A stretch of DNA of 64,000 nucleotides from positions 1 through 64,000 of the IMG/VR virus record IMGVR_UViG_3300035698_019959; one strand, given 5' to 3'. Below, one piece after another: positions 6,683 to 30,826 of this stretch. The notes under the pieces were generated by a model. It did not search any database. It was given only the letters and a program-made list of their open reading frames with translations, and had not been told where the DNA came from. Source of the DNA: a virus. Position numbers and translations under genes: made by a program. How positions within the stretch are numbered: position 1 is the first letter of the stretch; each line of letters begins with the position of its first letter.

Positions 6683-7208
6683 CCTCAAAAGAAAAGATGT
6701 TGAGAATGCTATTGATGAATGTGCAGATAAGAAATTAAGATATTTTATGACAGGTGGATGTTACGGACAACCTAAAGAAATAATCCACCAAGAAGAAGTA
6801 TTTATAGCTAATAAATGTAAGTTGGTAAAAAATATAATGGCCCTTCAAGATAAAGAAGAAATATTAATATGGGACGATCCAATGGATTATAATTATTACT
6901 ATAGAACAGCGGATGGGGAATATATAAAAATGGGGTCAAAGAAAGAAGGAATAATAGAGCCGGAATGGATGAAAGGAATAAGGTATTTGTATCTAAGGTT
7001 AGCACAAGAAAGAGGCTTTCAACCTGTCGATAAGCTTTGTAGTATAACTGATGTTGGAGGGTACCACGAATTAATATCTTTTGTCTCTGACTTACTTGAA
7101 GATCTTGGAAGCAAATGCTTATGTAAAATGGGAGCGGTTCTGGCCCGTAATCGTTCGGGCAATATGATAAAAGGTGCTATTAACGGAATAACTTATTGGA
7201 GATTGTAG
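6675..7208 (+). CDS. Hypothetical protein, 177 aa
   Basis: A soluble mixed alpha/beta protein with no motif I can name. The ATG follows AAAGGGGCAACC and overlaps the preceding small membrane gene. The following epimerase gene starts 10 bases after its stop. It may be an accessory protein of unknown role. Confidence 0.65.
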   Translation: MTNLKRKDVENAIDECADKKLRYFMTGGCYGQPKEIIHQEEVFIANKCKLVKNIMALQDKEEILIWDDPMDYNYYYRTADGEYIKMGSKKEGIIEPEWMKGIRYLYLRLAQERGFQPVDKLCSITDVGGYHELISFVSDLLEDLGSKCLCKMGAVLARNRSGNMIKGAINGITYWRL

Positions 7209-7217
7209 GGGTATGTT

Positions 7218-8153
7218 ATGAAAATATTAGTTACAGGTGGAGCGGGGTTTATAGGATCTCATATAGTCGATGCTTATATCGATGCCGGGCATGATGTTGT
7301 TGTAATAGATAATCTTTCAACCGTCAAAAGAGGTAACTTGAATCCTAAGGCGAGGTTGTTTGAATTGGATATATGTTCAAAGGAGGCTTCTGAAGTTTTT
7401 GAAGCTGAAAAACCGGATATTTTAAATCATCATGCGGCTCAAATAGATGTAAGGATTTCTGCTGAAGATCCTGTGTTCGATTTAAAGGTCAATGTGGGTG
7501 GGCTTGTAAATCTTCTCGAGGCAGGAAAGAAAAACGGTCTTAAGAAGGTTATTCTCGCGTCATCCGGCGGTGCTATATATAGCGATAAGGCAGAGAAGCC
7601 TTCAACGGAAGATTCACTTGCGGGTCCTTTAAGTCCCTACGGTTTAAATAAGTTGATATGTGAACATTATTTATCGATGTATGAAAGGGTTTGCGGGATT
7701 AAGTGGGTGGCTCTTCGATATGCCAACGTATATGGACCTCGTCAGAATCATAAGGGCGAGGCCGGCGTGGTTGCTATATTTATAGATAGATTGCTTTCCG
7801 GTGGGGTGCCGACCATTTTTGGTGATGGCAAACAAACCAGAGATTATGTATTCGTCGAAGATGTGGTTGAAGCAAATAGGTTAACCCTTGCGGAGGATAT
7901 GTCCGGTATATACAACGTGGGCACTGCTGTTGAAACTGATGTTAATGGTATATTCAGTATGATTAGGGAGCTTTCTGGAGCTTCTTGTGAACCGAAATAT
8001 GGCGAGAAGAATTCATCGGAGTTGCTCAGAAGTTCAGTCGAGCCTAAAAGGTTCATTGAGAAAAAGGGTTGGAGACCCTCCGTAAGGTTAGATGATGGAA
8101 TTGTAAAAACCTTTGAATGGTTTAAAAATAAAATAGAGGAAGAAAACATTTAA
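7218..8153 (+). CDS. NAD-dependent epimerase/dehydratase, GalE-type
   Basis: A 311-residue extended SDR sugar-nucleotide enzyme. The Rossmann motif GGAGFIGS is at residues 7-14. The catalytic SS is at 115-116 and YxxxK at Y141-K145 (YGLNK). ALRYANVYGPRQ follows, as in UDP-glucose 4-epimerases, and the length is normal. It would interconvert UDP-hexoses (or UDP-HexNAc or uronates) in the cytoplasm. It lies among small early-type genes, far from the sugar cassette at 16.5-24.5 kb that it could supply. The last codons and the junction (8125-8163) are repeated at 9226-9264, which suggests it arrived or moved by recombination. Confidence 0.88.
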   Translation: MKILVTGGAGFIGSHIVDAYIDAGHDVVVIDNLSTVKRGNLNPKARLFELDICSKEASEVFEAEKPDILNHHAAQIDVRISAEDPVFDLKVNVGGLVNLLEAGKKNGLKKVILASSGGAIYSDKAEKPSTEDSLAGPLSPYGLNKLICEHYLSMYERVCGIKWVALRYANVYGPRQNHKGEAGVVAIFIDRLLSGGVPTIFGDGKQTRDYVFVEDVVEANRLTLAEDMSGIYNVGTAVETDVNGIFSMIRELSGASCEPKYGEKNSSELLRSSVEPKRFIEKKGWRPSVRLDDGIVKTFEWFKNKIEEENI

Positions 8154-8163
8154 GGAGACAATA
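8125..8163 (+). repeat. 39-bp gene-junction repeat, copy 1
   Basis: Identical over 39 bases to 9226-9264. It covers the last codons of the epimerase (…KIEEENI), the stop, the AAGGAGA site and the start of the next gene's ATG. Confidence 0.92.
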
Positions 8164-8519
8164 TGAAAAAATGGGAAGAAACAACCAATCAAGTTTTTGA
8201 ATTAAAAAGAGTTATAGAAATTCTGCAACAGGATTATGATAGTAAGGATGAAATATTCAAATATTTAGAAGAAATAGAGCAAGTCTCTGATGAAGAGTGT
8301 GATGGGTGTATCAATGAATCGTCAATTCATGATGGGACTCTTCTTTTTACATATGATTTAATTGGTCAGGCAATCAATCTTTTATCTGCGACAGACACAA
8401 GGCAAATAGGAAAGATAAATTTACAAACAGATTATATAATATGTAATATGAAATATGGGAAGAAAATGAGCGTGTCGAGGGATATCGTAACAATTCCATT
8501 CAAATATCAGGAAGAGTAG
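8163..8519 (+). CDS. Hypothetical protein, 118 aa
   Basis: An acidic helical N-terminal half (likely coiled coil to residue 45) with a CDGC pair, and a beta-containing C-terminal half. The ATG follows AAGGAGACAAT, which belongs to the 39-bp junction repeat. Not recognised. Confidence 0.65.
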   Translation: MKKWEETTNQVFELKRVIEILQQDYDSKDEIFKYLEEIEQVSDEECDGCINESSIHDGTLLFTYDLIGQAINLLSATDTRQIGKINLQTDYIICNMKYGKKMSVSRDIVTIPFKYQEE

Positions 8520-8535
8520 GTTAAAGGAGGAAACA

Positions 8536-8742
8536 ATGGCATTTGGTAAAATGGATACAGGATTTTTATATATGTGGCTTGAGAAAAGTAGAGAGAATCT
8601 AAAAAAGTCAAAAGAAGCATTTTCTAAAGAATCCCACCCTCAATTTTTAGTTGGTAACGACTCTGAGAATATAGGTGCTCTTATCAAAGCACTACAAAAA
8701 GAAATTAATAAAAGGAATATGTTCCAAGGTAATAGAAGTTGA
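8536..8742 (+). CDS. Hypothetical protein, 68 aa
   Basis: A small basic helical protein behind AAAGGAGG. No domain recognised. Confidence 0.6.
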   Translation: MAFGKMDTGFLYMWLEKSRENLKKSKEAFSKESHPQFLVGNDSENIGALIKALQKEINKRNMFQGNRS

Positions 8743-8763
8743 ATTTCAATAAGGAGACATTAT

Positions 8764-8958
8764 ATGCTTATTCTAAAGAAGATAGGACTATCTCTATTAA
8801 TACTGTACATACCTATAGTACTTATTATCTCATTACTACTAGATATTGATAAGATACTCATACATATTGTATTTTACCCTCTAATGGTACTATTTTTAGT
8901 ACTACTAGTGGTAATGTTTATACTTCCACCAATATATAGAATATGGGGTGGCAAATGA
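8764..8958 (+). CDS. Small membrane protein, 64 aa
   Basis: Almost entirely hydrophobic, with two transmembrane helices (about residues 6-25 and 32-58). AAGGAGAC lies before the ATG, and the end overlaps the next gene by ATGA. Function unknown. Confidence 0.6.
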   Translation: MLILKKIGLSLLILYIPIVLIISLLLDIDKILIHIVFYPLMVLFLVLLVVMFILPPIYRIWGGK

Positions 8959-9254
8959 CACAGAAGATAAGAGATAGAGTATCAGATTTTGAGTATATAG
9001 GTGTTGATGCAGGAGATCTTGAATGGTTATGTACTACTATAGAGAAGTTATGTGATGTGGTGGATCTTAGTAAGACTGTGTTTGAGGAAGCAGTAGTAGA
9101 GATGGACGGCCGGAAACAATGTTTAACATGTGGTGTTTTTAGGTCTTTTGGCGAAGATTTTGTACACACAACCACATGTGAGGTTGACCAATTAGGTAAA
9201 ATCTTTAAAGCCCTAAAAGAATGGGAAAATAAAATAGAGGAAGAAAACATTTAA
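8955..9254 (+). CDS. Hypothetical protein with Cys/His site, 99 aa
   Basis: Start at the ATG overlapping the preceding TGA. A CLTCGVF motif with later HTTTC (near residues 58-80) gives a CxxC…H…C arrangement that could bind zinc. The last residues (KIEEENI) and the 3' junction match the end of the GalE-type epimerase gene at DNA level, although the rest of the protein is unrelated. Confidence 0.62.
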   Translation: MTQKIRDRVSDFEYIGVDAGDLEWLCTTIEKLCDVVDLSKTVFEEAVVEMDGRKQCLTCGVFRSFGEDFVHTTTCEVDQLGKIFKALKEWENKIEEENI

Positions 9255-9264
9255 GGAGACAATA
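9226..9264 (+). repeat. 39-bp gene-junction repeat, copy 2
   Basis: Second copy of the sequence at 8125-8163, again spanning the end of one gene and the ribosome site of the next. Confidence 0.92.
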
Positions 9265-9266
9265 AA

Positions 9267-9467
9267 ATGATTATAAAAGAGATGACTCTTAGTATATGTA
9301 TGAATCGAGATCTAGAAAAGGAAGTTTGTGTTCTTGATGAGGAAAGCGATATAATAACTATTTTTGGTGAGCAAGAAATAGAAGAATTTATAGAGAAGTG
9401 GGAGACAACTGATTGGAATGAGGGGGAAGAGGCTGTTTGTAACACTCGCTTTCTACTTGAGAGATAA
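9267..9467 (+). CDS. Hypothetical protein, 66 aa
   Basis: A small acidic protein downstream of the 39-bp junction repeat, which supplies its AAGGAGA site. No domain recognised. Confidence 0.6.
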   Translation: MIIKEMTLSICMNRDLEKEVCVLDEESDIITIFGEQEIEEFIEKWETTDWNEGEEAVCNTRFLLER

Positions 9468-9468
9468 A

Positions 9469-9897
9469 ATGAATACAAAAATAATAAAAGGTCGTGTATG
9501 GATATGTATACCTGATAGTGAATCTGGTGGGTTCATGGATTATTTTGAAATTAATAATGGTAATTCTTATGAGCTTGGTTCTATCTTAAGCAACTGGACT
9601 CCTGGAAGTGCTTTAATGTTTGCGACAGGTGCTACAGATACTGAAGGTAATGATGTTTATGCTGATGATGTTTGTTTATGTAATAACGGAACGCTTCAGG
9701 GTGAAAAAAAATGTGAAGGATGGGTTGAAGTTGTTAAGTATCAATGTATAAAAGAAAGAGGATATTGGGAGGTTGGGTATCCAATATTTAGTGATAGTTG
9801 TGTAAAGGTTATAGAAGTGTTGGGGAATATTCATCAGAATCCTGAGTTTAAAAAGGTACTAGATGGATGTCGTGGACATGATATTGTAGTCAATTAA
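9469..9897 (+). CDS. YopX-like protein (second copy)
   Basis: Start at the ATG one base after the preceding stop. The longer frame starting at 9418 lies inside that gene. It has 142 residues. A DTEGNDVYADDVCL strand and the closing EVLGNIHQNPEF match the YopX family, whose members end with a GNIxxNPE-like segment. It is only distantly similar to the copy at 6055-6522. Function unknown. Confidence 0.78.
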   Translation: MNTKIIKGRVWICIPDSESGGFMDYFEINNGNSYELGSILSNWTPGSALMFATGATDTEGNDVYADDVCLCNNGTLQGEKKCEGWVEVVKYQCIKERGYWEVGYPIFSDSCVKVIEVLGNIHQNPEFKKVLDGCRGHDIVVN

Positions 9898-16514: not shown

Positions 16515-17615
16515 GTGCGTATTGGTTTAGTTAGCACTTTCAATATAGAGTGTGGAATTGCCACGTATACTCAGCATCTTGTAGAGAATTATCCTAAGAA
16601 TACAATAATCTTTGCGAACGATTTAGATGGTATGAATGATACGGGTGATCATAAAGGTCACCCCATTATTCGTTGTTTTTCTCGTAAGGGCACTCACGAA
16701 AGATTATTAAAAGAAATTATAGATTCTAAGGTTGATGTAATTCATTTTCAACATGAATTTGGCTTATTCCAAAATCACAAATCTTTCTTGGAGCTTTTGA
16801 AGGCATTAAAGACTCATTATAATAAAAGGATTGTGATGACTTTCCACACTGTGTTCACAGACAATCAGTGGAATAGTAAAATATACGAATATTTTAAATG
16901 GTGTGATAGGTTTATATTTCATCACGAAGATGCTAAAAAACGATTAGATTTATCTAGTTGTTATGTTATTCCCCATGGTTCTGTAGTTGTACGATCGAAG
17001 CCGAGATGGGAAGCTCGTGAGTATTTCGGAATCCCGGAAGATCGTTTCGTTGCATTGGCGTTGGGGTTTATTACACCAACAAAAGGTGCGGCAGATAGCA
17101 TTAATGCTGTCATGCGATTAAGAAAGATGTACCCGAATTTATTATTAATAGTAGCAGGTACGGCTATTGTTTATGATAATAATTTCACTAATTTAGAATA
17201 TGCTTTAACATTATTTAAGCAAGTAAGAATGATGAAGGCAGAAAAAACTATCAAGATCATGTTCAAGTTTATCCCAGAGAACGAGCTTGATTATTTTGCT
17301 GGGGTTACAGACATAGCAATAGAGAATTACCATCAGACGCAATATTCAACATCAGGAATGAGCCACCTAGTTATGAGTTATGGATTGCCCTCTATTTCTT
17401 CTAATTCAAATATCCTAGCAGATTTAACTCCGGAAAGAAGTTTAAAGTATGATATCGGGAATATTGAACAGATGACTGGTCAGCTAGAAAAGCTTATCAC
17501 TGATGACGTTTTAAGAAAGCAACTCTCTAGTAATTGTTTAGATTATTCAAAAAAAACCTCCTGGCCAAATACTACAAAAAGTCACTGGGACTTATATAAC
17601 GGCATAGCATTATAG
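16515..17615 (+). CDS. Glycosyltransferase, GT-B fold (GT4-like)
   Basis: 366 residues, starting at a GTG behind AAAGGGGG. It opens with the GT-B N-terminal strand and Gly loop (IGLVSTFNIECGIATYT). HFQHEFGLF and TFHTVFTD follow, then the C-terminal Rossmann half from LALGFITPTKGAAD. It ends with an E…SxxMxxGLP region (IENYHQTQYSTSGMS…YGLPS) typical of GT4 donor sites. It would transfer a sugar from a nucleotide sugar in the cytoplasm. First gene of the nine-gene sugar cassette. Confidence 0.82.
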   Translation: MRIGLVSTFNIECGIATYTQHLVENYPKNTIIFANDLDGMNDTGDHKGHPIIRCFSRKGTHERLLKEIIDSKVDVIHFQHEFGLFQNHKSFLELLKALKTHYNKRIVMTFHTVFTDNQWNSKIYEYFKWCDRFIFHHEDAKKRLDLSSCYVIPHGSVVVRSKPRWEAREYFGIPEDRFVALALGFITPTKGAADSINAVMRLRKMYPNLLLIVAGTAIVYDNNFTNLEYALTLFKQVRMMKAEKTIKIMFKFIPENELDYFAGVTDIAIENYHQTQYSTSGMSHLVMSYGLPSISSNSNILADLTPERSLKYDIGNIEQMTGQLEKLITDDVLRKQLSSNCLDYSKKTSWPNTTKSHWDLYNGIAL

Positions 17616-17624
17616 GAAAATAAA

Positions 17625-18671
17625 ATGATAAAGACTGATAGGCTGAGAATAGCAATTACAGGATTTTATGGAGCGGGTAATAGTGGCGATGAGGCTATGC
17701 TTCATAACTTAGTATTCAAGATTAAGCAAAGAGTCCCTGATGCAGTTATACTAGTGGCAACCGATAGAATAGGGGACTGGCAACATGATGATGTTTATTA
17801 TATGTCAGCGTTAGATAGAGCGAAACTTAGAGAGACAGATATCTTTATAGTAGGTGGTGGAGATTTAGGATTTGGGTTCGGTTGGAATTTATTACCTTGG
17901 GCAAAAAGGTTTAAGAACAAATGTATTATGATGGGTAGTGGTATTAACAGAACATGGAGAGATCCAAATTTTAAAACAGCGATAACTTCTATGTTGGGCT
18001 TGTTTGATAAAATATATGTAAGAGACGAAGACTCAGCTTTGTTTTTAAATGATTTGGGTGTTTATAACAAATACGCTACGGATATGTCTTTTGATCTATG
18101 TCAAGTACCATATGTCTTTAGAAAGAGTGAGAAGCATATTACCTTATGTATAAGGGAAACAGAAAGTAAGTACGAATCTCAGATGTTGGATTGTGCTATT
18201 AGAGTTATAAGAAAAGTTACTACTGATGGATTTACAACAACTATTCTACCGCTTTGTGAAGAGGATGCTATAAGATGCGATAAGATCTCTAGTTTCTTCA
18301 ATGACAAGGTTCAACTGATTCATACACCAGATCCAGAGCAGCATAAATATATTATAGCAAATTCAAATTATTTAGTTTCTTTAGGACGTTTGCATTCTTT
18401 GATATATGCTACTGATACTTGTACTCCTATGATAGGAATGAGTTACCCTGTGGTTGAGGAATATTCTAAAATAAATGCATGGATGAAACATATTGATTTA
18501 GAGAGGTTTCATTTAGACTTTTCTCCTTCTATAAAGCAATTTACAGAGAAGTGGACGCACATGCGAGCGCATGTGGTTGCGGTTAAAGATATTTTACAAA
18601 AGCAAAGAGACAGACATATCAAACTTAATAACGATCAGTTCGATGATGTCATCGGGTTAGTGGGTGAATGA
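17625..18671 (+). CDS. Polysaccharide pyruvyl transferase family protein (CsaB/WcaK-like)
   Basis: 348 residues. It opens with the family signature (ITGFYGAGNSGDEAML), then IFIVGGGDLGFG and MGSGINRTW, and later LVSLGRLHSLIYA (the RxHxxI-like motif) and PMIGMSYP. The family adds ketal pyruvate to sugars of surface polysaccharides, giving acidic groups recognised by SLH-type domains. Some members are plain glycosyltransferases of similar fold. It overlaps the next gene's start. An unusual gene for a phage head region. Confidence 0.82.
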   Translation: MIKTDRLRIAITGFYGAGNSGDEAMLHNLVFKIKQRVPDAVILVATDRIGDWQHDDVYYMSALDRAKLRETDIFIVGGGDLGFGFGWNLLPWAKRFKNKCIMMGSGINRTWRDPNFKTAITSMLGLFDKIYVRDEDSALFLNDLGVYNKYATDMSFDLCQVPYVFRKSEKHITLCIRETESKYESQMLDCAIRVIRKVTTDGFTTTILPLCEEDAIRCDKISSFFNDKVQLIHTPDPEQHKYIIANSNYLVSLGRLHSLIYATDTCTPMIGMSYPVVEEYSKINAWMKHIDLERFHLDFSPSIKQFTEKWTHMRAHVVAVKDILQKQRDRHIKLNNDQFDDVIGLVGE

Positions 18672-19672
18672 TGCCAAAGATGACAGTGGGTATAAATACA
18701 GCACAAATAGATTATCCTTATTCTGCTTACCCAGACGTGCATCTGTTTGAAATGACTATGAAGAGTCTGCGTGAGCAAACTTTTAAAGATTTTGAAGTTG
18801 TTGTTGCTGATGTAAATTACGAACAAAGAAAAAACTATTTCATAGATCATCCTGAAGACTTTCCAGTTAATCACGTTCCGATAAAGCCAAATATTTGGAT
18901 TCCATTTAATCATATGGCAATAGCTACTACGAAGAATACAATTCTCTTGCATGCAAAGGGTGACATAATTACATCAGTAGGTTCTTCTGTACGTTTGGAC
19001 AAATACTTTTTAGAAGCTGTTTTAAGCGGTGTGACCGAAGATTGTTGTGTGGTTAATCGGTTTTCTATTAATTGTGGGGAAAAGATTATTTTTCATGATG
19101 GTAGAGATCCTGCTGATTCTCATTCTTCTGTTCATGGAAATGTGTCTATGACTAAAGAGAATTGGATGTTAATAAATGGATATGACGAAATGCTTGATGG
19201 ATGTAAGGGGTTAGAAGATTGTGATATTGGAATAAGGTTGGTTAGAGCGGGTAAGAAGATAAAGTTGATTGGCCCAAAGATTGTGTATGAAGATCATGTC
19301 ACTTATTATCCTTTATTGCGTGATGGCCCTGGGTTTCAGAAGTGTCCGCACCTATTATTAGAGATATCTAAAAAAAGAAGTCAAATTCGTGCTAACGAAA
19401 CTCCATTGACTGATCAAGAGTATAGTTATTTAAAGATGTGCAAATTAGGGGATCAAAGAGATAGTTGTATTTTATTTCCTGATCAACCATGCATTCATTG
19501 CACTGAAGACAACAAATGTTATTTTGGGGAAGAGCCTGAGTTGATGGGATTGTATAAGCATCCTTCTTTGATTTTTGATTTAAAAGAAATGCGTAAAAAC
19601 ATTGATTCGGCTATTTTGGCATTAATATATATGTGTAGTCTAGAAGAATTAAAAGAATTTATAGGGGGATAA
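18668..19672 (+). CDS. GT-A family glycosyltransferase, paralogue 1
   Basis: 334 residues; start at 18668 or the next ATG at 18671. A GT2-type fold with SLREQTFKDFEVVVAD near residue 34, a Lys-Asn pair after IATTKNT, and NGYDEMLDGCKGLEDCDIG with the ED acceptor-site acid. At the position of the metal-binding DxD the sequence reads ITSVGSSVRLD, so the acidic pair seems lost. It ends with a HPSLIFDLKEM segment shared by all three paralogues (18668, 20183, 21186). A Cys-rich stretch lies near residue 270. Confidence 0.75.
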   Translation: MMPKMTVGINTAQIDYPYSAYPDVHLFEMTMKSLREQTFKDFEVVVADVNYEQRKNYFIDHPEDFPVNHVPIKPNIWIPFNHMAIATTKNTILLHAKGDIITSVGSSVRLDKYFLEAVLSGVTEDCCVVNRFSINCGEKIIFHDGRDPADSHSSVHGNVSMTKENWMLINGYDEMLDGCKGLEDCDIGIRLVRAGKKIKLIGPKIVYEDHVTYYPLLRDGPGFQKCPHLLLEISKKRSQIRANETPLTDQEYSYLKMCKLGDQRDSCILFPDQPCIHCTEDNKCYFGEEPELMGLYKHPSLIFDLKEMRKNIDSAILALIYMCSLEELKEFIGG

Positions 19673-19674
19673 AA

Positions 19675-20190
19675 ATGGATGAATATCAAGAAAGGTACAA
19701 AGGGCACCAACAAAGAAAAAGGGAAATGCTGATGAAGATAATGGAAGAGAGACATTCTGATAGAATTTTTAGTGATAAAGAAGTTGAGTTGGAGAAGGTG
19801 AATGCATTGACCAAGTGTGTTAATTTGTGCCCCACTTCTTGTGGTAGAAGGGCAATAAGTTTAAAAGTTGTTTCTGATAGAGATAAAAAGAATTTGTTAG
19901 GTGGAATTTTAGTGGGTGGAACTGGCTGGATAAATAGAGCGAAACATATTTTTTTAATTTTTGCAAACGGAGAGGCTTATAAAGCAGGAGATGAAATTAA
20001 TTTTATGCCATACTTAGACGCAGGGGTGGTAGCTCAACAATTATATTTAATGGCTACGACTTTAGATTTAAAATGCTGTTATGTTAATCCGAATATAAGG
20101 GAAATGAATAAAGAGCATTTTAAAAATATTTTTGGAGATGGGCTCTTTTGTGGGGCTTTTGCTATAGGATATGGAGAAAATAATGCCTGA
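19675..20190 (+). CDS. Nitroreductase-like flavoprotein
   Basis: 171 residues. ERHSDRIFSDKEVE (near 23-36) and NLCPTSCGRRAISLKVV match the start of the nitroreductase/FMN family: an Arg-rich FMN-phosphate site, then the PS-C-R loop. A LDAGVVAQQLYLMATTL helix and CCYVNPN follow. It is short for the family but has its main landmarks. The substrate is unknown. Within a sugar cassette it could reduce or oxidise a sugar-linked group, or recycle flavin. It overlaps the next glycosyltransferase gene. Confidence 0.72.
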   Translation: MDEYQERYKGHQQRKREMLMKIMEERHSDRIFSDKEVELEKVNALTKCVNLCPTSCGRRAISLKVVSDRDKKNLLGGILVGGTGWINRAKHIFLIFANGEAYKAGDEINFMPYLDAGVVAQQLYLMATTLDLKCCYVNPNIREMNKEHFKNIFGDGLFCGAFAIGYGENNA

Positions 20191-21199
20191 AATATCTATT
20201 TGTGTGGGAACGGCTCATAGCGATCACGCTATGTTGGGTAATCCTAAGATGCATATTTTTAAGTACCTCACAAAGTCTTTAAGGGAACAAACCTTCAAAG
20301 ATTTTGAATTGGTTCTGACGGACACTCTTTATGAGCAGAGAAAAGATTATTTTAAGAAGTTCCCTGAAGACTTTGTTGTTAAGCATGTTCCTGTGAAGCC
20401 GAATATTTGGATGCCTCAGGGATATTGCGCAATAGCTACTACTAAGAATACAAGTTTGTTACACGCCGAGGGCAAGATAGTTGTTTATACTGGTGATTGT
20501 TCTAGCTTACCTCCTAACTTTTTAAAAACTATTGTAGAAAAAATAAGATCGAATCGCTGTATAGCAAACACTTACGAGATATATTCGGGAAGGAAGCAAG
20601 TTTTTAAGGATAGGAGAGCTCCTGGAATAGTCCAAGGTACGTACGGTAATGTTTCTTTATATATGAAGGACGCATTAGAGCTGAATGGATACAATGAGAT
20701 GTTTGATGGCTCTAAGGGTTTGGAAGATTGTGACTTTGGTAGGAGAATGTATTCTAAGGGAATGATAATTGAATTAATAGATCTCCCTGTTCGGTATCAA
20801 CAACACAAGGGTGACTTCCCAACTTTAGAAGCTCAACCACTAAAATGCCCAAGACTGATGGAAATGATGAGCTGTGATAGATCTAGGATAAAAATATATA
20901 AAGCAAATTCTGTACCGTATACAGAAAAGGAAATTGATCGCTTGTTAGAATGTTCTGAAATATCAAAAGGCCATTTCTGTAAATATGTACGAGATATTAA
21001 TGGTGACTCAATTGAATGTAGAAGTGGGTTGAATCAAGACGGTAAGGCAAAATATAGTGATGTTGTTAAAATAAGATTTATGTACAATCATCCTTCTTTG
21101 ATCTTCGATTTAAAAGAACAAAAGAAGAGTATAAATAAAGCTTTGTTCGATTTAGACAAATTATGTCAAGATGTGGGGGCGAGATATGCCAAAAGTTAG
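20183..21199 (+). CDS. GT-A family glycosyltransferase, paralogue 2
   Basis: Start at the ATG behind GGAGAAAATA; the in-frame ATG at 20171 is less likely. It shares with paralogue 1 KSLREQTFKDFELVLTD, MPQGYCAIATTKNTSLLHAEG, NGYNEMFDGSKGLEDCDFG and HPSLIFDLKEQ. The DxD position reads VVYTGDCSS, keeping one acid. It probably adds a sugar to the same glycan as its neighbours, or has become a non-catalytic partner. Confidence 0.75.
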   Translation: MPEISICVGTAHSDHAMLGNPKMHIFKYLTKSLREQTFKDFELVLTDTLYEQRKDYFKKFPEDFVVKHVPVKPNIWMPQGYCAIATTKNTSLLHAEGKIVVYTGDCSSLPPNFLKTIVEKIRSNRCIANTYEIYSGRKQVFKDRRAPGIVQGTYGNVSLYMKDALELNGYNEMFDGSKGLEDCDFGRRMYSKGMIIELIDLPVRYQQHKGDFPTLEAQPLKCPRLMEMMSCDRSRIKIYKANSVPYTEKEIDRLLECSEISKGHFCKYVRDINGDSIECRSGLNQDGKAKYSDVVKIRFMYNHPSLIFDLKEQKKSINKALFDLDKLCQDVGARYAKS

Positions 21200-22217
21200 T
21201 GTAGTATATACAACAATTAGAAGAGACTTTCCTATGTTAAGTTTGCCGGATATTCATCAGTTTACTATGTTTTTAGATTCTGTTGAGAAGCAAACTTTTA
21301 AAGATGATATAGAAGTCATTATAGTAGACGCCTTAAAGGATCGCAAAATAAGCAATCCAATTACTCCTATGTTTGATGGGGTTACTAGAGGTGATTTTGA
21401 TTTTTCTAAGTACTCTTTCCCGATAAAGCATATCAGACCTTTGCCAAGTTATTGGTTAGACGAAGGATTTTCGTCTTATTGTCATTGTGTTAACACTGGC
21501 ATTATTGCTGCTGATGGTGAGTTGATTGTATTATTTGATGATTGTTCAGAAATAATAGGCACGGAAGCTTTAGAATTACATTGGGAGTGGTATAAGAAAG
21601 GTGACGGTAAACAGTTCGCTCGTTCTATTTTTGAATACTGGAAAGGCGGTTCTCCTGTTCTACATCATCCTGATCATAAGACCCATGCGGGAAGACCCAT
21701 AAGACATTCGGCATATGATTATCTTGCTAGAACAAATAAATTATATTTAATACACGAGAAGATGTTTTGTGCCTTTGGGTATTACTCGTTTAGTTTAGAT
21801 GTGATGTTAGAGTTGAACGGATATAATGAAATGTTTGATGGAGCGAAGGGTGCAGAAGATTTCGATATGGGCTGTCGCTTAATAGATTTTGGTGTTCGGT
21901 CGATAGCGGATATGCGGTTAAGAGTGATAGAACATTTCCACGAGCCTATGGTTTTCCATGGAGTAAACCATAATCGTGGTCGTAGGAATAATGTTGCTAT
22001 TCACGAAGCACTCTTAAAGCGCGGTCCAACATTTAAAAGAGCAAATGAGAAGCCGCTGACCGAAGAAGAATATAATTTTATGTTAGAAAGAGATAGAGTG
22101 TATGTTCCTAATTTTGTAGAAGACGAGTATATTAAGAGAATTAAAACTCACCCACCAATTTTTGATTTAAAAGACCTGAGGAGGAAATATCGTGAAGGAT
22201 TCTATGATGAGAAATAA
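21186..22217 (+). CDS. GT-A family glycosyltransferase, paralogue 3
   Basis: Start at the ATG behind GGGGGCGAG. It overlaps the end of paralogue 2 by 14 bases. It is the most conventional of the three: VLFDDCSE provides the DD pair expected for metal and nucleotide-sugar binding, and NGYNEMFDGAKGAEDFDMG the ED motif. It ends in HPPIFDLKDLRRK like the others. A His-rich insert (EHFHEPMVFHGVNHN) follows the ED motif. Confidence 0.78.
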   Translation: MPKVSVVYTTIRRDFPMLSLPDIHQFTMFLDSVEKQTFKDDIEVIIVDALKDRKISNPITPMFDGVTRGDFDFSKYSFPIKHIRPLPSYWLDEGFSSYCHCVNTGIIAADGELIVLFDDCSEIIGTEALELHWEWYKKGDGKQFARSIFEYWKGGSPVLHHPDHKTHAGRPIRHSAYDYLARTNKLYLIHEKMFCAFGYYSFSLDVMLELNGYNEMFDGAKGAEDFDMGCRLIDFGVRSIADMRLRVIEHFHEPMVFHGVNHNRGRRNNVAIHEALLKRGPTFKRANEKPLTEEEYNFMLERDRVYVPNFVEDEYIKRIKTHPPIFDLKDLRRKYREGFYDEK

Positions 22218-22773
22218 TGGTGTAAAAGAAAGAATTTATATTACTGATAGTGAGTTAGAGATTATTGAGAACAGGTTATCGGTAGAAGCTCATGTCCAGA
22301 GATATGGCTTTGTGCGTCAGTATGTTCACGATCATGTTTTAGATTGTGCTTGTGGGTGTGGGTACGGAACTTATATGTTATCTAAGAACCCTGATGTTAA
22401 ATCTATTATAGGAGTTGATAGATCTAAAGAGGCAATTGATTTTGCTATGGATAATTATTGTGATAAAAAAACTTTTTTTACTCATTGTGAAAATATAGAA
22501 GATTTTGAGGTTGAGTGTATAGATCAGTTGGTTTCTATAGAGACGATAGAGCATTTAAAAGATCCCATGACTTTAATAGAGATGGCTATAAGGAATGAGG
22601 TTCCGGAATTAATTATTTCTTTCCCGACTAAAAAGTCCACTCATTATAATAAGTTTCACTATCATGATTTTACATTCAACGATATCAAAGAGATGTTGGT
22701 TGGATATTATAAGGTAAAAGATTCATTTGAATATAAGCGAGAAGTAGGGTTTGTTTTCGCCAAAAAAATATAA
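22192..22773 (+). CDS. SAM-dependent methyltransferase (class I)
   Basis: 193 residues, starting at a GTG 6 bases after GAGGAGG and overlapping the preceding gene. It has a Rossmann methyltransferase core: motif I VLDCACGCGYGTYML, GVDRSKEAIDFA (the acidic residue binds the SAM ribose), and SIETIEHLKDP as motif IV/post-I. The context suggests a sugar or lipid-sugar methylation step, but DNA or protein substrates cannot be excluded. Confidence 0.8.
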   Translation: MKDSMMRNNGVKERIYITDSELEIIENRLSVEAHVQRYGFVRQYVHDHVLDCACGCGYGTYMLSKNPDVKSIIGVDRSKEAIDFAMDNYCDKKTFFTHCENIEDFEVECIDQLVSIETIEHLKDPMTLIEMAIRNEVPELIISFPTKKSTHYNKFHYHDFTFNDIKEMLVGYYKVKDSFEYKREVGFVFAKKI

Positions 22774-22787
22774 GGAGAATAAAAAAA

Positions 22788-23525
22788 ATGAAAGCTTCTG
22801 ATTTTAATGCAAAGTATTATGATAAGAACTATTTTGTAACCCCAGAGGGCAAAAAATTTCATAACGCTGATGGTAAGGAATTGGGTTGGAGTTATAATAA
22901 CCCTGAAGGAGAATTCTTAGGAGCTGGCCCGATAGCTCAGGCTTGGGCAACAATTTTCAAACCTAAGAATATGTTAGATGTGGGTTGTGGCCGTGGAACA
23001 TTCGTAGCGTATGCTCGCAAGGCGGGTATTGAAGCGCACGGATTTGATTTTTCAGAATTCGCTACAAGCGAAGAAGGAAAGTATGCTGGTTGTGAAAAGG
23101 GATGGTTAAAGTGTCACGATGCTTCAAAACCTTGGCCGTATCCAGATAATCATTTTGATTTAGTAACGTGTTTAGATTTGTTCGAACATATTTACGAAGA
23201 AGACCTACCTCAAGTGATTAATGAAATGTTTAGGGTAGCAAAGAAGTGGGTATTTATTCAAATTTGTACGGTTAATGGCCAAGAAGGTTATACACTAGGT
23301 AAGAAAGAAAGTGTTCCGATAGAGCTTGAGGGAATGGCCGTTGCAGGACATGTTTGCATTAAGCCAGAGTATTGGTGGAATTATAGGTTTTATAAAAATG
23401 AGTGGCTTCCTAGGAAGGTTATGACCGAGAGATTTATTTCTCTGGTGGATAACAATATTATTTCCAATTGGATAAGGAATTCAATTTTAGTTTTTGAAAA
23501 AGATATCGATGGTTCGGGGGAGTAA
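22788..23525 (+). CDS. SAM-dependent methyltransferase (class I), second
   Basis: 245 residues. Motif I MLDVGCGRGTFVAYA near residue 62, then HGFDFSEFA, then LVTCLDLFEHIYEEDL. It is a Methyltransf_11/23-like enzyme. The N-terminal 45 residues (FNAKYYDKNYFVTPEGKKF) resemble sugar O-methyltransferases of polysaccharide clusters. AAGGAG lies before the ATG. Confidence 0.8.
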   Translation: MKASDFNAKYYDKNYFVTPEGKKFHNADGKELGWSYNNPEGEFLGAGPIAQAWATIFKPKNMLDVGCGRGTFVAYARKAGIEAHGFDFSEFATSEEGKYAGCEKGWLKCHDASKPWPYPDNHFDLVTCLDLFEHIYEEDLPQVINEMFRVAKKWVFIQICTVNGQEGYTLGKKESVPIELEGMAVAGHVCIKPEYWWNYRFYKNEWLPRKVMTERFISLVDNNIISNWIRNSILVFEKDIDGSGE

Positions 23526-23553
23526 TTAATTTTAACAACATGAGAGAGTGGTA

Positions 23554-24495
23554 ATGAAAATTCAATTTTTTAAACGTACTGATACAACATCTTTTGATTA
23601 TTTGGGAACTTGTATTTCAGAGATCTGTAGGGCTCATGGTCATAAGGTCGTTGTAAAGAGTATAAATAAATTTGTAGAGGGAGAAGGTATTGAGAGAGCT
23701 GAAGTGGGGATGTCTTATGGTTTAATTTCTGATATAAGGCATCTTGCTGCTTATCCTATAAAAATTGCTGGCTTGGTCTGTGAGAAGGATTTAACCCCTA
23801 AAGAAATAAAAATAATTAAAAATATAGATCCTACAGAGATTTGGGTACCTAGTGAGTTTGTAATGAAGAAATTCCAAGAGGCTGGTTTTATAAAAAACTT
23901 GGCATTGGTTCCTCATGGTTTGGGCGAAGTCACAAAGGTTAAGAATAAAAAACGTACGGATAAGGTTCTAATGATTTTTAATTCTTATAAGAAGGCAGAT
24001 TTTAGTGTAGAAAGAAAAGGAATTTTTGAAGTACTAGAAGCATGGGGTAAATATAAAATACCACAAAAATTGATCCTAAGAACCAAGTATAGAAATTATT
24101 ATGGAAAATATGATCTATCCAATGTTTCTTTTATAGAAGATAGAGTCGAAGATATCGGTGGATTGTTAAATGATTGTGATGCTGTTCTTTGCCCTAGTTA
24201 TTCAGAAGGGTTTGGGATTGTTGGGTTAGAGGCTTTGGCTCATGGCGTTCCCTTGATATCGACCAAGACGGGGAATGATTATCTTCAAAAGGATGTTTTT
24301 TATACTCATATAGATTTGCCAGTGACAGTAGAAAAGATAAAGATAGCTATTGATGAGACGTATTTAGATTTAGATATAAATAAAAAAATAGCAATGGGGC
24401 AGGCTGATCGAGTATATAAAAAGTATAAATGGCAAAGTCTTTATAAGATAATTGAAAAAAGAATTAGTGTTTTAAAATCTAAGAGATACTCCTAA
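23554..24495 (+). CDS. Glycosyltransferase, GT-B fold (GT4-like), second
   Basis: Start at the ATG behind GAGAGAGTGGTA; the GTG two codons earlier is an alternative. About 313 residues. The C-terminal donor domain has VLCPSYSEGFGIVGLEALAHGVP, the textbook E-x7-E GT4 motif, and STKTGND. The N-terminal acceptor half includes IWVPSEFVMKKF and LVPHGLGE. Last gene of the sugar cassette; an AT-rich promoter-like element follows it. Confidence 0.85.
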   Translation: MKIQFFKRTDTTSFDYLGTCISEICRAHGHKVVVKSINKFVEGEGIERAEVGMSYGLISDIRHLAAYPIKIAGLVCEKDLTPKEIKIIKNIDPTEIWVPSEFVMKKFQEAGFIKNLALVPHGLGEVTKVKNKKRTDKVLMIFNSYKKADFSVERKGIFEVLEAWGKYKIPQKLILRTKYRNYYGKYDLSNVSFIEDRVEDIGGLLNDCDAVLCPSYSEGFGIVGLEALAHGVPLISTKTGNDYLQKDVFYTHIDLPVTVEKIKIAIDETYLDLDINKKIAMGQADRVYKKYKWQSLYKIIEKRISVLKSKRYS

Positions 24496-27265: not shown

Positions 27266-28744
27266 ATGTTTAATGAGGCAAATTTTACAGAGGGCTTTGG
27301 GTCTTCTACAGTACAGGAATTAGAGGCTCTTAGAAAAGCTTTGACTGTCGATCATACTTATACTGCTGCTCCCGGAACTTTTACGGGCGCGGGCGCTTTA
27401 CAGGTTGAATCTTTAGATGCTTCTCTTAAGAGTGTTACTTTTACGAACAAGAATCTAACTATATGGCCACGTATCCCTAAGGATAAAGCATATAGTACGG
27501 TTGAACAGTATGTAAGACAAACCAGTTATGGTGAAAGCCAGAATGGTGGATTTTTTGATTCTGAAGCAGGAGTTGCTCCTCATACAGAGGATCCTACTTG
27601 GAATAGACAGTATCAGTTAGTTCGTTATGTTGGAACGACTCGTTCAGTTGCTCATGTTGCAACTTTAGTAAAGCAAATTGGCGCTCCGATGATAGCAAAG
27701 GCTGTTGAGGCAGGAACCAAATGGATTCTGCAGCAAATGGAAAGACAACTTTGGTTGGCTAACAGTTATTTTGTAGGTGTTGATGGTATCTTTGATGGCG
27801 CTACGGCTGATATTCCGGCCACGTCTTTAAAGTTTAATGGTTTAGATCAGCAGATTCGTGCTGGTGATTCTGATGCGAAAGCAAAGTATACGGGTTTTGA
27901 GGGATATGATGATGACATTTCTGTTGTTGTTGATATGCTCGGAAGTATTCCCGATGAGGATGCTCTTGAAGAGGCTTCAAGAATTGTGGCTTCGAATTTT
28001 GGTATACCTACTGCGCTGTTTATGGATTACAAGGCACATAGTGATATCAGCAGAACCTTCTATCCGAAGGAATGGTATCCTCGTCCTGGTATGATGCAGG
28101 GTGGCCAAGGTGGTTTTGTATTATCAAAGTTTATCAGTTCTGCTGGTATTTATGATCTTATAGGAACTCGTTTCCTATCACCAAGACGTTCTGTTCTTGC
28201 TGCGGCAGAATCAGACGCTCCTAATACTCCTGTTGTTACGGGTACGGCAGCTGTTGCTGATGTTGCATCTAATTTAGATGCAGGAACTTATTATTTCAGA
28301 GCTTCTGCGATTGGCCAGTTTGGTGAGTCGCTTGCTTGTGCTGAAACAGTTGGTCAGGTCATTGCGGCCAATCAGCATGCTACGGTCACAATAGCTCCAG
28401 GAATTGTTGGTGCACAGTATTATGCTTTATTTAGGACCGAAACCTCTGGTGCAAGTTGGTTGTTCATAGGTTTTGTGGCAGATTCTACTGGTAACGGTGG
28501 TGGTGCAACTTTTGTTGATGCTGGTAATTATTTACCAGGTTCTTCAAAGGCATATCTGCTTCAGTTAGAGTCGGCAGAAATTGTTTGGAGACAGTTAGCT
28601 CCATTGATGAAGATGGATCTTGCCGTTATTTCGCCTGCGTACAGATGGATGCAATTACTTTACGGTACACCGATTGTATTCGCTCCGAGACATCATGTTA
28701 TACTTGATAATATCGGTCAGGGCGTTGCAATTACTGCTCCGTAA
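27266..28744 (+). CDS. Major capsid protein (HK97-like) with Ig-like insertion
   Basis: 492 residues behind AAAGGAGATAT. The N-terminus (ELEALRKALTV, then TGAGALQVESLD) is that of capsid proteins in large contractile phages. SVTFTNKNLTIWPRIPKDKA starts the HK97-type core, and a KMDLAVISPAYRWMQLLYGTP region ends it. Residues about 315-425 form an extra domain (TYYFRASAIGQFGES, YYALFRTETSG) with the pattern of a fibronectin-III/Ig-like beta-sandwich, probably exposed on the capsid surface. Terminator after the gene. Confidence 0.88.
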   Translation: MFNEANFTEGFGSSTVQELEALRKALTVDHTYTAAPGTFTGAGALQVESLDASLKSVTFTNKNLTIWPRIPKDKAYSTVEQYVRQTSYGESQNGGFFDSEAGVAPHTEDPTWNRQYQLVRYVGTTRSVAHVATLVKQIGAPMIAKAVEAGTKWILQQMERQLWLANSYFVGVDGIFDGATADIPATSLKFNGLDQQIRAGDSDAKAKYTGFEGYDDDISVVVDMLGSIPDEDALEEASRIVASNFGIPTALFMDYKAHSDISRTFYPKEWYPRPGMMQGGQGGFVLSKFISSAGIYDLIGTRFLSPRRSVLAAAESDAPNTPVVTGTAAVADVASNLDAGTYYFRASAIGQFGESLACAETVGQVIAANQHATVTIAPGIVGAQYYALFRTETSGASWLFIGFVADSTGNGGGATFVDAGNYLPGSSKAYLLQLESAEIVWRQLAPLMKMDLAVISPAYRWMQLLYGTPIVFAPRHHVILDNIGQGVAITAP

Positions 28745-28770: not shown

Positions 28771-28805
28771 AAAGAGGGATGATTAATTTCATTCCTCTTT
28801 TTTTT
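28771..28805 (+). terminator. Rho-independent terminator after the capsid gene
   Basis: A ten-base stem (28771-28780 with 28791-28800, one G-T pair), loop 28781-28790 and a run of eight T ending at 28805. It isolates the following endonuclease gene from capsid transcription. Confidence 0.85.
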
Positions 28806-28831: not shown

Positions 28832-28841
28832 GTATAATAAC
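28832..28841 (+). promoter_or_regulatory. Possible promoter (-10 like) very close to a start codon
   Basis: GTATAATAAC with TATAAT at 28833-28838, only six bases before the ATG at 28845 and just after a terminator. A transcript would begin about at the start codon. No Shine-Dalgarno is present, which suggests leaderless translation or weak expression. Confidence 0.4.
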
Positions 28842-28844
28842 GCT

Positions 28845-30479
28845 ATGATTAAAAATAAAAAATATTCACCAAGAATGAAGCCGATAGATATAAACAAACT
28901 TATTGAATTAAAAACAAAAGGGTTGTCTAATAGTAAGTGTGCTAAATTGTTAAATGTTAGCGGAGAAAGATTAGGTGAAACTGTTAAAAAATTAATTCAA
29001 AAGAAAAAAATTGTTATAAAAAAAATACCTTGGAATAAAGGATTGTCGTCAGTAGAAAAAAAAGAAGTCGAATGTACCTATTGTAAAAATTCTTTAAAAA
29101 TATCCTATAAGAAGTACAATAAAAGCAAAAGCAAAAAATTTTATTGTACTAAAAAATGTGAAGCAAATGATAGAAGAAAAAATGAAATAATAATTTTAAT
29201 TTGTAAATGTTGTGGGGAGAAGTACCCAACGACCAATAAATATCAAAAATATTGTTCAAATAAATGCAAAAATAATAGTTTTGATCCCCAAGTGTTATTA
29301 AAAAATCAAAAAATAAATTATGGTCCAGAAAGACGATCAAGAGTATTAAAGAACAAGTGGGCAAAAGATAAAGAAAAAATGTTAGAAAAAAGAAATACGG
29401 ACGAATATAGAATTAAAATTGGGGAAACAACGAGAGAAAGATTTGAGAATGATTCTGTTTTTAGAGCAAAACATTCTCAAAATTGTAAGGAGGGTTGGAC
29501 TTCAGAAAAAAAAGAAAAACAAAGAAAAATTGCTTTAAATAGAATGAACAATAAGTGTATCACAATACCTAATTTAATTGTTGCTGATTATTTGAAATTT
29601 CTTGGTGTGAATTATAAAATGGAGCAACCGATAGGGAATATTTGTCGGGTGGACATATTGATAAACGAAAAAAAGATTGGAATAGAAATTTTTGGCGATT
29701 ATTGGCATGCCAATCCTTTAATTTTAGAGTTAAAAGAGAATAAGACTCTAACATATGACCAAAAGGGTAACACAAAAGGCGATTGCGAAAAGGCAATTAA
29801 ACTGAAAGAAGAGTACCCCCAATATAAGATTTTATATTTATGGGAAGGGGATATAGCATTTAAGTGGGGTGAGTGTAAAAATAAGATCTTATCTGAATTA
29901 CAAATTGAAGAGCCAATTATAAATATGAAAGATTATAAAATTTTAAAAATTGATTCTGATCGCGCAAAAATGTTTTGTCAAAAATATCATTATTTAGGAA
30001 AATCTTTCCCAATAGCGCCTAGGGTTCTTTATGGACTATTCTATAAAGAAATTTTAGTAGGAATTGCCGTATATAGTAATACTGGAGCTTTAAACGCAGG
30101 GAATATAGTTGGAAATAATGTATGTGAGTTATCAAGATTTTGTCTTTATGATTCTTTGCCTAAAAATACTGCTTCTTATTTTTTGTCTAAAACTATTCAT
30201 TTGATTAAAAAAGATATTTCCAATTTGGACGGGTTGATCTCTTATTCAGATGATAGTATTCATCTTGGAACAATTTATAGAGCTACTAATTGGGAAGAAT
30301 TGGGGAGTGTTAAGGGTTCTTATTATTACCTTACTCCACATAGTCAAAAAATTGATCGAAGAAAAGTACATGGCCATTGCAGTGCTTTTTCTATATCTGA
30401 GTCAGAATATGCTAAAAGAATGGATTTAAAAAAGATTGATACGCCCACTAAGACCAAATTTGTATATCGTTTTAATTAG
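28845..30479 (+). CDS. Vsr/EDxHD-type homing endonuclease fused to a Mom-like acyltransferase
   Basis: 544 residues. Residues 14-55 look like an HTH (TKGLSNSKCAKLLNVSG), followed by the PWNKGL motif seen in homing endonucleases. Two zinc knuckles follow: C77/C80…C101/C105 and C120/C123…C137/C141. Residues 240-345 are a Vsr-like nuclease fold with D270 (CRVDIL), E281 and H288 (IGIEIFGDYWH). Residues 362-505 match the Mom family: KYHYLGKSF, VLYGLFYKEILVGI, ELSRF (429-433), KNTASYFLSK, SYSDDSIHLG and YRATNW. Mom adds a methylcarbamoyl group to adenine in Mu-type phages. Its own terminator upstream and promoter suggest an insertion after the capsid gene. Confidence 0.8.
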   Translation: MIKNKKYSPRMKPIDINKLIELKTKGLSNSKCAKLLNVSGERLGETVKKLIQKKKIVIKKIPWNKGLSSVEKKEVECTYCKNSLKISYKKYNKSKSKKFYCTKKCEANDRRKNEIIILICKCCGEKYPTTNKYQKYCSNKCKNNSFDPQVLLKNQKINYGPERRSRVLKNKWAKDKEKMLEKRNTDEYRIKIGETTRERFENDSVFRAKHSQNCKEGWTSEKKEKQRKIALNRMNNKCITIPNLIVADYLKFLGVNYKMEQPIGNICRVDILINEKKIGIEIFGDYWHANPLILELKENKTLTYDQKGNTKGDCEKAIKLKEEYPQYKILYLWEGDIAFKWGECKNKILSELQIEEPIINMKDYKILKIDSDRAKMFCQKYHYLGKSFPIAPRVLYGLFYKEILVGIAVYSNTGALNAGNIVGNNVCELSRFCLYDSLPKNTASYFLSKTIHLIKKDISNLDGLISYSDDSIHLGTIYRATNWEELGSVKGSYYYLTPHSQKIDRRKVHGHCSAFSISESEYAKRMDLKKIDTPTKTKFVYRFN

Positions 30480-30559: not shown

Positions 30560-30826
30560 ATGGGGGAAGAAATAAAGATTTTTAAAACCGATAATCTTGC
30601 TTTGGCTCCTTTTTTAAGTATGCAGGGTTTAAAGTATGTCGGTTGCGATATAGATACGAGGAATCATAACGTATATAAGGTTGTTTTTATGTTTGAAGAT
30701 CCCAGGGATATCGGTAATGAAATGGCATTAGATTTTACCAATTCTAGGGAAAAATTGTATCGTGGCAAGTACGCCTTTTTTAGAAATGAAATAGAAATCA
30801 CTAAAAAGAAAATAAGGGAGAAATAA
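30560..30826 (+). CDS. Small protein, DUF5659-like, 88 aa
   Basis: FKTDNLALAPFLSMQGLKYV followed by a VVFMFEDP strand and a C-terminal RGKYAFFRNEIEI matches the layout of DUF5659, a small phage domain of unknown function. AAAGGAGAGG precedes the ATG. It lies after the endonuclease-Mom gene, and an AT-rich element (about 30511-30530) precedes it. Confidence 0.58.
   Translation: MGEEIKIFKTDNLALAPFLSMQGLKYVGCDIDTRNHNVYKVVFMFEDPRDIGNEMALDFTNSREKLYRGKYAFFRNEIEITKKKIREK

Follow-up and report, generated by a model that had tools for sequence, protein, structure and literature searches.

A gene behind a phage capsid gene joins an EDxHD nuclease to a Mom-like domain and may be a homing-type element that marks its own DNA

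The window analysed here is a stretch of 64,000 nucleotides, positions 1 to 64,000 of the virus record IMGVR_UViG_3300035698_019959 (64,442 bases). Downstream of its major capsid protein gene lies a fusion gene that begins with ATG and runs without an internal stop, as the first-pass annotation, which was made from the sequence, had read it (Table 1). No clear Shine-Dalgarno sequence is seen at its ATG (positions 28,833 to 28,845) and a TATAAT lies a few nucleotides upstream; a strong Shine-Dalgarno sequence is present at the next gene (30,560). These signals hint that the fusion gene may be expressed at a low level or from a leaderless transcript, and low expression would suit a homing gene better than an enzyme that modifies a whole genome.

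Table 1. Features of the fusion gene and its surroundings, in window positions. Residue numbers refer to the fusion protein.
Feature	Position	Strand	Basis or remark
Major capsid protein gene (SPO1-like, phrog_752), upstream neighbour, likely homing-target region	27266..28744	+	
Terminator-like hairpin and T run in the gap between capsid gene and fusion gene	28771..28800	+	
EDxHD nuclease-Mom fusion gene, 544 aa	28845..30479	+	Frame, Pfam, PHROGs, structure model
N-terminal helix-turn-helix-like three-helix segment, residues 16-52	28890..29000	+	Model helices
Cys4 motif 1 (C77, C80, C101, C105), probable zinc knuckle	29073..29159	+	Sequence reading
Cys4 motif 2 (C120, C123, C137, C141), probable zinc knuckle	29202..29267	+	Sequence reading
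EDxHD / I-Bth0305I-like nuclease domain, residues 240-354 (D270, E281, H288)	29562..29906	+	Fold, profile, conservation
Mom domain, residues 358-544 (H382, Y383, R431, S444, D469, Y478)	29916..30476	+	Fold, Pfam PF25680, conservation
88-aa gene, right flank of the site	30560..30826	+	44-47% identity to capsid-adjacent homologues in L009 and L011

No close relative of the whole protein was found in a search of IMG/VR. Against PHROGs it was assigned to phrog_1384, 'Mom-like DNA modification protein' (E 2e-33). Residues 71-509 also match the 'homing endonuclease' family phrog_3339 (E 1.2e-14), an early hint that other proteins share this architecture. A structure model was built with an alignment of 57 related fusions and reached a mean pLDDT of 79.5 and exceeded 90 in most blocks of the two catalytic domains; folding the single sequence without an alignment gave a pLDDT of 38, and the alignment-based model was used instead. 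It places predicted helices at residues 16-24, 29-36 and 40-52 (block pLDDT of about 80-89), in keeping with the helix-turn-helix-like start noticed earlier, and the two zinc knuckles noticed with it correspond to two Cys4 motifs read from the sequence.

The modelled nuclease domain superposes on the catalytic domain of I-Bth0305I (3r3p) with a Z-score of 13.4 (2.5 Å, 94/97 residues). A profile of the related fusions matches I-Bth0305I at E 3e-8 and Vsr weakly, aligning the same acidic and histidine region with Vsr, and the Pfam Vsr match to the fusion protein itself falls under the cut-off (16.8 vs 27 bits). Among the 57 relatives D270 is invariant and E281 and H288 are at least 90% conserved, all three in columns that align with the active site of Vsr and I-Bth0305I. 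The catalytic fold is therefore held in common with I-Bth0305I. The latter, however, is named in the PDB as a mobile intron protein and was solved as a catalytic domain without Mom, whereas the fusion gene is free-standing. In a nuclease tree of only 103 columns the fusion protein's nuclease groups with stand-alone EDxHD nucleases (88/98), and Hef nucleases group apart. This grouping might point to a fusion that arose independently, but we do not claim so: a clade that unites the fusion protein with the other fusions is not rejected by the AU test (p = 0.417, or p = 0.408 when Hef is added).

Mom enzymes transfer an acyl (methylcarbamoyl) group to the N6 of adenine in DNA. The Pfam Mom profile (PF25680) matches residues 364-522 of the fusion protein at E 4.4e-25, with 89 bits against a cut-off of 27.1, and the sequence of the Mu Mom crystal (8bv8) is matched at E 1e-5. 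The modelled domain resembles Mu Mom (Z-score 18.6) more closely than the next GNAT (15.0), and all of the Mom-conserved residues given in Table 1 are present, aligned with those of Mu. The C-terminal half is thus a Mom domain and not a plain GNAT acetyltransferase, and it is apparently intact in its motif residues. Besides S124, the active-site residues of Mu Mom include H48, Y49, R101 and D139, in its shorter numbering. S444 corresponds to S124 by alignment, and the S124A mutant is named inactive in the title of 8bv8. Mu Mom differs in being a separate protein under Com control, whereas the Mom domain described here is joined to a nuclease. Moreover, the fusion protein bears the tail residues Y493, Y495 and E519, which are common to the other fusions, linking EDxHD, HNH and Hef types and setting them apart from stand-alone Mom.

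Both domain calls of the first-pass annotation, including its choice of nuclease residues, have therefore held up. Its tentative suggestion that such an architecture had not been described has not. Iyer et al. 2021 (PMC7824862) report jumbo-phage proteins in which Mom is joined to a nuclease of the REase fold, propose a restriction-modification role and count five momylating enzymes in phage PA5oct. In addition, relatives in annotated phages are named 'Hef-like homing endonuclease', 'homing endonuclease' or 'nuclease/acetyltransferase', and a search of cultured phages with one EDxHD-Mom relative returned Hef-like genes as the best among the matches listed. No publication on a Mom-bearing homing endonuclease was found in a search of the open-access literature. 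Cultured Campylobacter phages (e.g. MT863717.1) have 4-8 places per genome that match the EDxHD-Mom query, and many of these are annotated as homing endonuclease.

The same fusion was indeed found elsewhere. Scans of IMG/VR were sorted with domain profiles and the best 80 loci per scan were retained, so that class sizes are samples rather than censuses: at least 81 sequences joining EDxHD to Mom, including the fusion protein and mostly from uncultivated phages (class F), at least 106 of Hef type (class H), at least 102 of Mom without a detected nuclease (class S), and four of HNH joined to Mom. Relatives that are 55-67% identical overall share 33-61% in the N-terminus, 59-91% in the nuclease and 63-75% in the Mom domain. 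The Mom domain is thus held about as tightly as the nuclease, and a functionless one would not be expected to stay so conserved; the N-terminus diverges most. Synonymous sites are mostly saturated between relatives and dN/dS values were not used.

A closer inspection of the Mom residues divides these classes. H382 and Y383 are present in 100/100% of sampled class F (81 sequences) and 96/96% of sampled class S (102). In sampled class H (106) the His is kept in 99%, but the Tyr of this HY pair is replaced by I (72%) or L (23%). N441 is found in 97% of F and 88% of S and is G in 98% of H among the sampled sequences, and the position of H473 is His in 90% of F and 94% of S and is missing in H (99%). 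R431 is retained in all three classes (99% in the class F sample). The remaining motif residues in the 81 class F sequences, S444 (94%, T in 4%), D469 (99%) and Y478 (97%), are as in stand-alone Mom. In the Mom tree the Hef domains form a single clade (100/100) with the fusion protein outside it; the latter also matches phrog_1384 better than the Hef-type family. Hef-type genes (phrog_3339) are like the fusion gene in domain order, in placement beside capsid and other core genes and in having several copies per genome, but they have lost the Mom signature that the fusion protein keeps. Among six cultured phages, 16/16 Hef-type genes have HI, HL, HF or HM. Five such genes were found in PA5oct, all with HI or HL instead of HY; from the equal number only, we infer that they are the five momylating enzymes of the cited paper. 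These PA5oct proteins share with the fusion protein a REase-fold nuclease followed by a Mom-family domain, but differ in the loss of the HY Tyr and in belonging to the Hef type. Four genes from uncultivated phages (L390, L396, L399 and L402) retain HY although the Hef profile is their best match, and are possible intermediates between the Mom-like and Hef types.

In four proteins (L111, L230, L236 and L250) an HNH-type N-terminus stands in place of EDxHD, and the H, Y and D of Mom are retained. L111 has a Pfam HNH match (2.6e-7), and L111, L230 and L250 match HNH or endonuclease PHROGs at up to 4e-47; L236 is called HNH-type by its alignment to L230 (51% identity). In the Mom tree L230, L236 and L250 nest inside class F (98/92) with HY intact, which implies that the nuclease has been exchanged and the Mom domain retained. 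On the branch that links F to S, L111 and the fusion protein sit next to each other; the Mom domain of L111 is the best match to that of the fusion protein (36-37%), while its nuclease is unrelated. These patterns imply that the nuclease of this lineage is exchangeable beside a retained Mom domain, an implication drawn from the HNH-Mom members and not from the fusion protein's own nuclease.

The place that the fusion gene occupies varies in relatives. L009 and L011 have no insert: about 230 bases separate their capsid gene from the homologue of the 88-aa gene that follows it. In L010 these two genes flank a lone HNH endonuclease gene (7517-8065). In L111, 58 nt separate the start of the HNH-Mom gene from the preceding capsid gene, which is 44% identical to that of the window, both being phrog_752; like the window's fusion gene, the HNH-Mom gene is preceded by a terminator-like hairpin, read from the sequence, and it is followed by a tRNA-Arg. 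Its right flank is not the 88-aa gene, so a shared site is shown for the left side only. The site behind related capsid genes can therefore be empty or hold HNH, HNH-Mom or EDxHD-Mom. Because the closest capsid relatives are only 44% identical, the exact boundaries of the insert and its target cannot be defined. Downstream of the capsid homologue in L012 are a helix-turn-helix fragment and IS605-type genes (7480-9479). Judged from their sequence, the latter specify a transposase of IS200/IS605-like type and a TnpB-like protein, which suggests that a transposon has inserted into a homing-type gene or next to one. Elsewhere, a class F gene (L241) lies between terminase and portal genes, and other relatives adjoin helicase, primase, primase-helicase or capsid genes. 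Three contigs have 7, 17 and 7 matching places, some of which are pieces of one gene. Such site use, core-gene neighbours and multiple copies are the habits of homing genes, and the synteny supports a mobile, homing-type behaviour of the fusion gene.

Taken together, these data make it fairly probable that the gene is a free-standing homing-type element whose product can cut DNA and probably acylates adenine, marking the DNA that carries the element. The element, flanked by the capsid gene and the 88-aa gene, would be aimed at DNA by its N-terminal part, with the helix-turn-helix and zinc knuckles. In genomes that lack the insert, the EDxHD nuclease would cleave conserved sequence close to the capsid gene, and repair of the cut would copy the fusion gene in. 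Most likely, the Mom domain would acylate adenine in the element-bearing DNA, which might then be spared by the element's own nuclease, by host restriction enzymes or by both. The mark may protect the element's own cut site rather than act as a general anti-restriction device, the present data fitting site-specific and general marking alike. A bolder form of this proposal, in which a single protein both cleaves DNA that lacks the insert and acylates adenine at its own target, thereby immunising the occupied genome, with Mom as the constant part and EDxHD or HNH as exchangeable ones, is put forward only tentatively. Relative to the published fusions, what is new at the level of sequence is the intact Mom signature, the exchangeable nuclease and the HNH version at the capsid site.

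The Mom domain could instead be anti-restriction cargo, a general mark on phage DNA that pays for the nuclease gene and is unlinked to the cut site. The Mom protein of Mu, which stands alone, serves in anti-restriction (PMC6483171), and the retention of Mom beside different nucleases would fit. However, many genomes carry several such genes, which would be redundant for a general mark, and the expression signals are poor; we consider this explanation rather unlikely. Slightly less likely still is the single-protein restriction-modification system put forward for jumbo phages by Iyer et al., a weapon rather than a homing element, in which the nuclease is directed at host or competitor-phage DNA that lacks the modification, and momylation shields the phage's own genome. 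The nuclease and Mom active sites both look intact in class F, as such a system would need. Nevertheless, the several divergent copies per genome, the insertion sites that in relatives are vacant or occupied by other nucleases, and the fast-evolving N-terminus are all homing-like, and the PA5oct genes found lack HY. The Hef class, to which the cultured-phage members inspected here belong, has lost the HY Tyr, and this does tell against catalysis: a nuclease can retain a C-terminal domain that lacks the Mom signature and that might do no more than bind DNA. Nevertheless, a domain retooled for DNA binding or positioning, as plausible as this is for Hef with its changes at Y383, N441 and H473, is improbable here, where the fusion protein and class F conserve these positions as well as stand-alone Mom does and HY survives a change of nuclease type.

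If the Mom domain is active, the preferred reading of a self-marking homing element would describe a homing gene with its own DNA-marking enzyme, so that one protein would connect selfish homing with DNA modification, and could be tested against the published restriction-modification proposal. The division between members that keep the signature and those that have lost it shows which merit assay: PA5oct, credited with five momylating enzymes, has five Hef-type genes without the HY Tyr, while many versions from uncultivated phages keep it.

A scan of bacterial and archaeal genomes gave three EDxHD-Mom loci, all on contigs of Lokiarchaeota MAGs, the remaining matches being mostly nuclease-only. 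These binned contigs (L346-L348), of which L348 also carries a Hef-type gene, are possibly viral or misbinned. Stand-alone Mom genes occur as adjoining pairs of divergent copies in L142, L145, L149, L151, L156, L158 and L174. The phage contig L009, related to the window, encodes a 465-aa IscB-like protein (6983-8380; RuvC-HNH, by eye), and in the window itself genes resembling glycosyltransferases and polysaccharide enzymes, again by eye, lie upstream of the structural genes (16,515-24,495).
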